Below are positions 10,121-23,170 of a DNA stretch of 23,403 nt, in pieces. A program made the position numbers and the translations under genes. The first letter of the stretch is position 1. The number at the start of each line of letters is the position of its first letter. Source of the stretch: a virus; the IMG/VR virus record IMGVR_UViG_3300044646_000650, positions 1-23,403 of that record, one strand, 5' to 3'. Under the pieces are notes generated by a model. It worked only from the letters and a program-made list of their open reading frames with translations. It was not told the DNA's origin and searched no databases.

Positions 10121-10831
10121 TTAGTATTTATATTTCCAAACAAATCCGTATGCTAATTTCTTAGTTCCACGAATACACTTTCCTATATGACTATCATCAT
10201 AATTTAAAACAGAAGCTATATTTTTTATTGTAGTCTTCCACTCCCTTACTACAGAATTATCTAGTGGATTAATCTGTAGTATACCACCATGATTCTTTAA
10301 TAGATTCTCTTCTCTAGTCTTTAAACAGGCCATCTTATAAGTGTCAGGTTTGATTTTATTTTGATTAGCTATTGCTATTTTCTTTTTAGCTTCCTCAGAA
10401 CATGCATAGTTAGACTTTTTTGGAGCCCTTCCTTTCTTTGCTAAACTCATAAGTTTTTTTGTTTCCTCGGATCTTTTTTGACCTAAGTGATGACTGCTTC
10501 TTTTTAATTTGGTTTCTTCTGTATCCACTCTACCAAAAGTACCATCTCCCCCTGCAGTCATGTTCATACCTAAAGGATTGTTTTTGTGGAAAGTATTTAA
10601 CAAAGTAATGTACTCAATCTCCTTAGTAGAAAGTAAGTTAGGATTACATGTTTCTAATACTTCTAAAGTATGATTTTCCCAACCATACTTTTTTATACTA
10701 TTGTAAATTAATGGTTGCTTCTTACAGTTACCGTTTCTGTAACAAGAAGTCCTAGTAGACAAGCACATAGTTTTACCTACGTAAACTTTTCCATTAGGGT
10801 TTGTGATTTTGTAAATTGTAGCTTGTCTCAT
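10121..10831 (-). CDS. GIY-YIG homing endonuclease with NUMOD-type DNA-binding modules
   Basis: A 236-aa free-standing homing endonuclease. The GIY-YIG nuclease core is at the N-terminus: IYKITN at 6-11, VYVGKT at 16-21, candidate catalytic Arg27, and a Glu in KEIEYI (70-75), followed by NMTAGGDGTFG at 90-100. Residues 102-160 carry Lys/Ser/Glu-rich segments of NUMOD3 type (GQKRSEETKKLMSLAKKG). The C-terminus (about 183-236) looks like a NUMOD1/IENR1 helix-turn-helix: a D..V..W.T...IA..L......I.KC..G..K.A.G..WKY pattern. The gene sits between two fibre genes on the same strand, 34 bases after one and 4 bases before the next, so it rides on late transcription. In this family such genes cut alleles lacking the insertion and spread by repair. 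Its target is not visible but would be expected in the flanking fibre genes. Confidence 0.9.
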   Translation of the reverse strand: MRQATIYKITNPNGKVYVGKTMCLSTRTSCYRNGNCKKQPLIYNSIKKYGWENHTLEVLETCNPNLLSTKEIEYITLLNTFHKNNPLGMNMTAGGDGTFGRVDTEETKLKRSSHHLGQKRSEETKKLMSLAKKGRAPKKSNYACSEEAKKKIAIANQNKIKPDTYKMACLKTREENLLKNHGGILQINPLDNSVVREWKTTIKNIASVLNYDDSHIGKCIRGTKKLAYGFVWKYKY

Positions 10832-18289: not shown

Positions 18290-18448
18290 AACTTATAACC
18301 TCTTATATAATCTCTTATAAGTTGTTATCTGTTATTCTTATTCGTCTCTTGTATCAGAGACGTTATCTAACTCTAAGCGAAAGTTTTGCTTGGTCGACTA
18401 TGCGACCTTAAACAGCCATTTAGGCATAGTGCGTCACTCTTATGAGTG
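18290..18448 (+). promoter_or_regulatory. Structured RNA leader with possible pseudoknot, upstream of a 50-aa gene
   Basis: Successive inverted repeats fill this stretch. AACTTATAA/TTATAAGTT lies at 18290-18298 and 18315-18323. CGTCTC/GAGACG lies at 18343-18348 and 18357-18362. GGTCG/CGACC lies at 18392-18396 and 18403-18407, and its loop ACTATG (18397-18402) can pair with CATAGT at 18425-18430 as a pseudoknot. CACTC/GAGTG (18435-18448) ends three bases before the ATG at 18452. It could be a cis-regulatory leader of the small gene or the start of the larger structured RNA locus. I do not recognise a named riboswitch. Bases 18206-18289 show nothing I can name. Confidence 0.4.
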
Positions 18449-18451
18449 GGT

Positions 18452-18604
18452 ATGGAAAAGATTAAAGATTTGTCAACTTGTTCATTGAATGAACTATTGA
18501 CTATTAGACAGAATGCTATCGAAGCAGACAATATAGAACTATATAGAGCATGTGGTAATGCTATTAGTGTTCTGTATTCTAAATGGGAAAATAAGGGAGC
18601 TTAG
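18452..18604 (+). CDS. Hypothetical 50-aa protein
   Basis: A short open frame from ATG at 18452 to TAG at 18604, MEKIKDLSTCSLNELL at the start and VLYSKWENKGA at the end. Composition is that of a small helical cytoplasmic protein (Leu, Ile, Glu, Asn-rich, no membrane segment). Support for its being a gene: it lies on the early strand, its frame reads naturally, and its stop codon sits in the loop of a terminator hairpin, as happens for other small genes here. Against it: there is no ribosome-binding sequence and it is embedded in a stretch dominated by RNA-structure signals. Function unknown. Confidence 0.5.
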   Translation: MEKIKDLSTCSLNELLTIRQNAIEADNIELYRACGNAISVLYSKWENKGA

Positions 18605-18612
18605 TCTCCCTT
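18593..18612 (+). terminator. Terminator hairpin over the end of the 50-aa gene
   Basis: AAGGGAG, a 6-base loop containing the stop codon, and CTCCCTT form a 7-bp stem, followed by TACTTT. Confidence 0.55.
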
Positions 18613-18774
18613 TACTTTAATGCATCATTCTATCTTCACAAGGGATAGCAGTTGTAATTCTTAATTAGTATTAGCAAGTACTCAATCTATCCCTTAATCC
18701 GTAAAGCAGTGTTCCTGTAGGATGCAAGATAGATGTTATGCTATACGGATTACAACTGAATGCAGAGTGGAGTG
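18613..18774 (+). repeat. RNA module copy 1
   Basis: TACTTTAATGCA at 18613-18624. Hairpin CTATC/GATAG at 18630-18634 and 18644-18648 with loop TTCACAAGG. Helix CAGTTGTAAT/ATTACAACTG at 18649-18658 and 18749-18758. The closing segment CTGAATGCAGAGTGGAGTG begins at 18756. The apical region holds AATCCGTA/TACGGATT and CTATCTT/AAGATAG pairings, some competing with the main helix. Confidence 0.65.
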
Positions 18775-19035
18775 TTTCCTGGGACTTAGCAATCGTCAAC
18801 CACAGTAAATATGTGCGTTAGGGTTACTAAGTCTACGAGACGATTAGAAATTCAATTGTAACCTAATCTTTATTTGCAGTAGCTAATGTAAATAAAAGAT
18901 AAGGGTGCTAGATAAAAAAAATGGACGATGCTAATCTTAGCAAGTAATAATTCTCCATTACCTCATCAGACACTATGGGGAAATGAATGTGTTAAAATAC
19001 AAGATAGATCAACAAGCCTTGTATTACAATTGAAT

Positions 19036-19210
19036 TACTTTAATGCACCACAACTCACTTCCAAAGGGTGAGCAGTAATAACAGTAAAATAAGCGGAAGG
19101 GTGCTCTCTTCCAACAGAACGACAGGAAGGTATCTGTGAAGCATTGCTTCTTAGAACACAGAAAGAATACTGTAAAAGAGCTACTGTTATTACTGAGTGC
19201 AGATGGAAGT
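19036..19210 (+). repeat. RNA module copy 2
   Basis: TACTTTAATGCA at 19036-19047. Hairpin CTCAC/GTGAG at 19054-19058 and 19068-19072 with loop TTCCAAAGG. Perfect 14-bp helix CAGTAATAACAGTA/TACTGTTATTACTG at 19073-19086 and 19182-19195. The closing segment CTGAGTGCAGATGGAAGT begins at 19193. A further GGAAG/CTTCC hairpin lies in the apical domain. Confidence 0.65.
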
Positions 19211-19228
19211 AAACTACACTACTAGTTT

Positions 19229-19282
19229 AGCACAAGAGTAGTATATCTAGAGATAACTTCATAAGGATGGCTTGTGCTTTTT
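19229..19282 (+). terminator. Terminator ending the structured RNA locus
   Basis: AGCACAAG (19229-19236) pairs perfectly with CTTGTGCT (19271-19278), with a run of five T at 19278-19282. The loop is 34 bases, long for a simple terminator. Confidence 0.55.
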
Positions 19283-22974: not shown

Positions 22975-23170
22975 AAAAACAACTCCTTACAGAGGGCGGA
23001 TTAGCACCGTTGAAAGATACTTTGGCTCTTGGGAGTAATTACCCAAATGAGTTACATGACCCAAAGTGAACTGTGATGGACCCTGCTCTGATGTGCACGT
23101 CAACAGGTGGACAGTAAACTATGTCCAGTAAAATCTACAAGCATGGTGAGCATGCAAGAAGTTGTTTTTT
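22975..23170 (+). ncRNA. Structured RNA abutting tRNA-Leu
   Basis: About 196 bases with no useful open frame and a nested fold. A closing helix AACAACT (22978-22984)/AGTTGTT (23160-23166) extends through a run of A into the run of T that follows. Inside are CAGAG/CTCTG (22990-22994, 23086-23090), ACTTTGG/CCAAAGT (23019-23025, 23061-23067) and TTGGG/CCCAA (23029-23033, 23042-23046). GGACA/TGTCC (23109-23113, 23122-23126) and GCATG/CATGC (23141-23155) follow. It shares CGTCAAC, an ACAGTAAA-containing hairpin and TCTAC.AG, in the same order and at nearly the same spacing, with 18794-18839. It starts one base after the tRNA CCA, so it is probably cut from the same transcript. No named family recognised. 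Confidence 0.6.

Follow-up and report, generated by a model that had tools for sequence, protein, structure and literature searches.

The locus and its two RNA modules

The window, i.e., the whole stretch of 23,403 nucleotides of viral DNA that was analysed (IMG/VR virus record IMGVR_UViG_3300044646_000650), contains the following features at the locus under study.

18392-18455, plus strand: pistol ribozyme (Rfam RF02679; 57.1 bits, above the gathering threshold of 34.5)
18452-18604, plus strand: open reading frame of 50 codons; its AUG lies 1 nt after the predicted pistol cut and its stop 14 nt before the first predicted twister-like cut
18590-18618, plus strand: hairpin (AAGGGAGCUUAGUCUCCCUU) plus the subsequent UACUUU, extending to the first predicted cut
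18612-18775, plus strand: putative twister-like ribozyme, copy 1, recognized by sequence, descriptor, alignment and model R1; P1 strand 18612-18617, predicted cut between U18618 and A18619, P2 18621-18625, P4 18630-18634/18644-18648, L4 18635-18643, P5 18649-18658/18749-18758, P2' 18760-18764, GA 18765-18766, T1' 18767-18769, P1' 18770-18775
18619-19041, plus strand: predicted released RNA of 423 nt, deduced from the two cut sites and including the hairpin domain of the linker
19035-19212, plus strand: putative twister-like ribozyme, copy 2, recognized by the same four means; P1 19035-19040, predicted cut between U19041 and A19042, P2 19044-19048, P4 19054-19058/19068-19072, L4 19059-19067, P5 19073-19086/19182-19195, P2' 19197-19201, GA 19202-19203, T1' 19204-19206, P1' 19207-19212

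We take the pistol ribozyme to cut between G18450 and U18451, a position derived from the established chemistry of pistol cleavage. The two modules further downstream had been noticed in a first-pass annotation of the sequence as copies of one RNA domain, and all the letters and motifs named there are present at both sites. Both copies contain the linear motif TACTTTAATGCA and the motif CTGA.TGCAG, and their L4 loops read TTCACAAGG in copy 1 and TTCCAAAGG in copy 2. Pairing is preserved between the copies while the sequence differs, as had been annotated for both the 5-bp hairpin, P4 (CTATC/GATAG in copy 1 vs. CTCAC/GTGAG in copy 2), and the long helix, which is formed by CAGTTGTAAT/ATTACAACTG in copy 1 and by the 14-bp CAGTAATAACAGTA/TACTGTTATTACTG in copy 2. 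The RNA of positions 18605-19225 folds more stably than shuffled sequence (z -5.3). No competing reading frame of at least 50 amino acids is found inside the modules, the sole same-strand open reading frame of the region being the one at 18452-18604, 5' of copy 1; the description of the element as a repeated, non-coding domain of phage origin is borne out. The loop-3' strand pseudoknot, the closing helix P1 and the neighboring pistol ribozyme are absent from that annotation. The linker between the copies (18846-19039) is closed by AGAAATTCAATTGTAA/TTACAATTGAATTACT (18846-18861/19024-19039) and constitutes a conserved, shuffled hairpin domain.

Distribution and covariation of the module

IMG/VR was scanned with 15-mers and then with patterns for the 5' half, the hairpin alone and the 3' half of the module. 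These scans yielded at least 191 distinct modules in viral contigs and at least about 250 module-bearing loci, with a single copy in 221 of the 249 loci listed. At least one match was present in 48 of 50 whole virus records, where each genome has, in essence, a single locus that comprises one to three tandem modules. The matches of one record are nearly all co-located, the exceptions being G029 and G031, each with two matches farther apart, which in G031 are located at its two ends. When 87 distinct modules were picked by the 5' half alone, the expected 3' half was found in nearly all of them, and a twister-style descriptor gave 153 matches in 402 loci vs. 2 in reversed sequence. The homologues settle that the module is not a product of chance. 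The descriptors, like the covariation null described below, were purpose-written scripts.

The position of the locus is conserved. It is found a few kb from the terminase and HU/IHF-like genes, which lie on the opposite strand, and is followed by a run of small genes, often with tRNAs, whose strand the module shares. The closest relatives of the terminase are those of Leptolyngbya phage Lbo-JY46 (39.6%), Cellulophaga phage phi4:1 (32.7%) and gut crAss-like phages (26-30%), and the carriers of the module are therefore crAss-like phages. The longer module-bearing contigs measure 80-126 kb. In three relatives (L139, L212 and L020), which are otherwise up to 100% identical, copy 2 and its 3' flank (window 19036-19278) are missing at one exact point. 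Thus, the predicted 423-nt product would be limited to some of the phages. Gains and losses of the domain are not coupled to the RNA that separates the copies; the linkers are shuffled among phages, and the region is an RNA mosaic.

When the region and a 45-nt consensus were compared by BLASTN with 50,697 phage records, only chance matches were returned, and among 63 matches in a pattern scan of genome contigs, L265 was the sole real module, the others representing chance spacing. The descriptor found no module in the parts of Lbo-JY46 and Cellulophaga phi4:1 that were covered (about 67 kb). No description of the module variant was found in the open-licence literature, and an earlier account may exist elsewhere.

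Alignment of the modules revealed the architecture P1-U↓AA-P2-P4(loop UUCnnAAGG)-P5-P2'-GA-T1'-P1', in which the arrow marks the predicted cut. Covariation was assessed against a phylogenetic null obtained by parsimony shuffling and modeled on R-scape. Seven column pairs stood out at E <= 0.015 among 90 aligned modules: three in the P4 hairpin, one in the UGCAY/RUGCA helix (P2), two in the pseudoknot and one in an outer helix, the first six of which belong to the predicted structure. In the set of 191 modules, whose 3' halves were selected by P5 pairing alone, four hairpin pairs, the Y-R pair of P2 and one pair of P1 (5-53, E 0.01) were significant, and the fifth hairpin pair reached E 0.05. 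Pseudoknot T1, which in twisters comprises three Watson-Crick pairs between L4 and L1, covaried in the smaller set (E 0.01 and 0.015), and its two varying pairs fell short of significance in the larger one (E 0.23 and 0.4). Hence, P4, P2 and P1 covary beyond the null, whereas the pseudoknot does so in the smaller set only. The proposal in the first-pass annotation that the element is under selection for RNA structure is supported.

Among the 191 modules, P2 is paired in 96-99% of cells, P4 in 99-100%, the proximal pairs of P1 in 69-81% and T1 in 95-96%. P2 shows the exchanges C-G to U-A (10 cases) and A-U to G-C (5 cases), and T1 occurs as CCC/GGG, CAC/GUG, CCA/UGG, CUC/GAG and CCU/AGG. Approximately 5% of the modules, some of which are possibly misaligned, have no GA or no T1 pairing. 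The stretch between P4' and P2' ranges from 14 nt (L141 and L224) to about 146 nt.

Relationship with twister ribozymes

The order and spacing of the conserved elements, P1-U↓AA-P2-...-P4(UUCCCAAGG)-...-P2'-GA-GGG-P1', are those of a type-P1 twister ribozyme (RF03160), the fold of which, with its pseudoknots T1 and T2, has been described (PMC5408937). In the twister-P1 consensus of Rfam (ccuuUAAcgCc...GGUCCCAAGCCCGg...gGcgGAGGGaagg), UAA, P2, GA, T1' and P1' follow each other in the same order and at the same spacing as in the modules. The three essential twister stems P1, P2 and P4 are present in this order around the internal loop L1, the 3' strand of which has the conserved G-A ahead of the T1 strand, and the dinucleotide corresponding to the scissile U-A, followed by another A, is located directly 5' of P2. 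P4 has a loop of the CCCAAG type, and P5 corresponds to a known optional stem of twisters. Both A's of UAA are fixed in all 191 modules, but they were demanded by the search pattern. In the flanks of loci that were found by the P4 hairpin alone, with UAA outside the pattern, it was correctly placed in 61 of 70 cases. The G and the A of GA, neither of which was demanded by the alignment rule, are each conserved in 181 of 191 modules. Applied to the loci, a descriptor built from twister rules alone retrieved 5 canonical twisters along with 118 modules, vs. 2 matches in the reversed control.

The modules differ from canonical twisters in several respects. Pseudoknot T2 in the form of GC in L2 with GC in L4 is absent: the dinucleotides are YC and GG in 118 of 118 modules, whereas they are GC and GC in the 5 canonical twisters from the same loci. 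Of T2, the C-G half, invariant in both letters, may be retained, and the other half seems to be replaced by the Y-R pair of P2. Furthermore, L4 comprises 9 nt with an extra U, P3 is absent, P5 is very long, and P2, the length of which has been reported to be critical in canonical twisters (PMC5408937), has a fifth pair (Y-R). The modules also remain below detection by the Rfam models: none was matched by the twister models even at E 5-10, and RF03160, with its gathering threshold of 67.2 bits, gave no match at E <= 10. A covariance search with all Rfam 15 families, including GOLLD and ROOL, likewise yielded no match on the modules, in line with the first-pass annotation, in which no known family had been recognized.

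Canonical twisters occur in the same phages. The Rfam twister-P1 model detects them near the locus in 3 of 35 phages (L406, L407 and L408; 60.0, 52.1 and 48.5 bits across the three, E 1e-14 to 3e-11), below the gathering threshold. In L408, the canonical twister lies on the strand of a variant module and precedes it by 115 nt. P2 reads UGCA/UGCA in canonical twisters and modules alike, and both show CAC/GUG and CCA/UGG as exchanges in T1. Model R1, which was built from modules only and with P5 removed, matched the window copies with 24.0 bits (E 3e-5, copy 1) and 29.1 bits (E 6e-7, copy 2), in both cases with the 3' half placed inside P5, and recovered the canonical twisters of L406 (27.5 bits, E 7e-6) and L407 (23.9 bits, E 1e-4) in register, skipping P4/L4 as an insertion. 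Because of this skipping and of the misplaced 3' half in the window, the correspondence of P4/L4 relies on the descriptor and on inspection by eye.

In view of the shared core, the altered T2, P3, P5 and P2, and the failure of the Rfam models, the module would work in a twister-like manner as a variant rather than as a canonical member of the class. It very likely represents a new variety of self-cutting twister ribozyme that was missed by the Rfam models. The twister class would thereby gain a large phage group that departs in T2, and since T2 is, by published accounts, critical to the active site of twisters, the requirements of the twister core could be tested directly on this group.

Predicted processing, alternatives and an insert form

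The pistol ribozyme, a self-cleaving element with a different fold, is separate from the modules but shares the locus with them, and it lies upstream of the module on the same strand in nine of the nine phages that have both. Of the 10 pistols in this phage group, 9 have a reading frame that is opened by GG↓UAUGG at the predicted cut. Six different reading frames of 50-124 codons are found in this position, lengths that have a naive chance of 1e-10. The stop codon precedes the next predicted twister-like cut by 14-37 nt in 7 of 9 cases; of the other two, one has a distance of 451 nt, and the last has no module in the sequence covered. This arrangement, with an AUG just after the pistol cut, a stop just before the twister-like cut and varying reading frames in between, suggests that the two ribozymes frame an exchangeable single gene. 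L212 has a homologue of the 50-codon frame, which is uninterrupted there and carries changes that keep the frame. When all modules are considered, stop codons within 100 nt upstream of the predicted cuts are weakly enriched (25% vs. 17%), and the association is strong only in pistol-containing loci. Hairpins with dG <= -8 are located just 5' of 29-31% of the predicted cuts vs. 6-10% in controls (p 3e-16 and 2e-11). Pistols with such a frame are found at window 18392-18604 and in L212, L219, L265, L401 and L479-L487, and the six frames are unrelated.

We consider it very likely that the modules are self-cleaving type-P1 twister variants, without P3 and with a long P5, which together with the pistol ribozyme carve the phage transcript. 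The basis is found in sequence, i.e., in the structure, its covariation, the match to twisters, the conserved AUG after the pistol and the stop before the module; from these we infer cleavage itself, the ends of the products and a biological use in mRNA ends and in the stability of individual early genes. P1 would fold around the U↓AA strand together with P2 (UGCAY/RUGCA), P4 (5 bp, loop UUCnnAAGG) and P5, and loop bases 3-5 would pair with the strand after GA (T1) to form the active site. Cleavage between U and A (18618/18619 and 19041/19042) would then leave a 2',3'-cyclic phosphate and a 5'-OH. From one early phage transcript, longer than the products, the cuts of the pistol and of copy 1 would release a single-gene message of 168 nt (18451-18618) with a 1-nt leader and, at its 3' end, the hairpin of 18590-18618; hairpins 5' of the cuts would protect the new 3' ends. 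The use of small ribozymes in phages is a long-standing question, and the excision of single-gene messages with defined ends, which would set the ends and stability of the mRNAs of single early genes, would provide a concrete, testable answer. Theta ribozymes of gut phages (PMC10879173) are likewise small ribozymes that process RNA of Bacteroidota phages, but they have an HDV fold and act at tRNA 3' ends, whereas the modules have a twister-like fold and are found beside small reading frames.

Alternatively, the module could be a structured domain that does not cut but is bound by a protein of the phage or the host, or serves as an antitermination or stability element, its twister core being convergent or retired. 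The altered T2 and the silence of the Rfam models would be compatible with this, as would the P5 sequence CARUUGUAAU, whose conservation exceeds what is usual in a helix and would suit a binding site, and the placement of the locus close to where a long operon begins, a typical place for antitermination elements. Yet, the unpaired UAA and GA are among the most conserved letters, with UAA persisting where no pattern demanded it, and the neighboring pistol and canonical twisters and the stops shortly before the cut fit cutting; a non-cutting role thus appears unlikely. Much less probable still is a DNA-level element (a site of recombination or a small mobile cassette) in which inverted repeats mimic RNA helices, which we consider barely credible: the precise absence of copy 2 in three relatives and the shuffled linkers could speak for it, but ordinary recombination between tandem copies explains presence and absence as well, and neither the covariation of the pseudoknot and of P1-P4 nor the fixed orientation with the downstream gene run would be expected.

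The first-pass annotation had proposed one large non-coding RNA of two repeated domains, which might bind two copies of the same partner. The window does contain two copies, with distinct pseudoknots that avoid cross-pairing, and the whole stretch has a stable fold. This proposal is not supported by the comparison with other phages, where most loci have a single copy, close relatives have no copy 2, linker and module are not conserved together, copies come and go independently of the linker, and pistol and canonical twister ribozymes are neighbors; we regard it as very improbable. A self-cutting element better explains the fold, which is that of a ribozyme, as well as the single copies, their gain and loss, and the neighbors, and the window is better read as containing a ribozyme cassette. 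GOLLD and ROOL are, like the RNA of the window, phage-borne, structured and hundreds of bases long, but the modules match neither in Rfam. A large RNA of this type was dropped as weaker than a twister after the UAA / GA-GGG / CCCAAG pattern had been recognized, and so were an exonuclease-resistant RNA, a riboswitch, a processive antitermination (put-like) element and an inverted-repeat mobile element.

Other phages have modules, at least 51 of them distinct, in which a domain of 99-244 nt without a match in Rfam splits P4 ahead of the T1 loop. The insert contains a helix GURG/CYAC, the third pair of which changes from G-C (38 modules) to A-U (13) without exceptions, and a near-invariant internal loop AUAURAAGACUUC / AGAUGURAAA; the 3' half of this loop, which was outside the search pattern, reads AGATGTGAAA in 45 and AGATGTAAAA in 6 modules. 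Another helix, 6 bp or longer, is present in 49 of 51. The insert is placed where binding of a ligand or partner could switch the active site, which makes these forms candidate natural allosteric ribozymes. To our knowledge, glmS is the only established kind of natural allosteric ribozyme. That the insert forms indeed are such ribozymes, and that pistol and twister-like ribozymes are exchangeable cassettes cutting near-leaderless single-gene messages, is a tentative and rather doubtful proposal. Examples of the insert, a possible aptamer (GURGAUAURAAGACUUC ... AGAUGURAAACYAC), are found in L389 (8060-8320), L383, L386 and L411-L477.

Elsewhere in the window, a gene with a NUMOD3 motif (homing-endonuclease-like) is located on the minus strand at 10121-10831 between tail-fiber-like genes, and a freshwater-1 RNA (RF02979, 84.4 bits) at 23072-23133 recurs in L100, L198, L204 and L205 beside tRNA-Leu.
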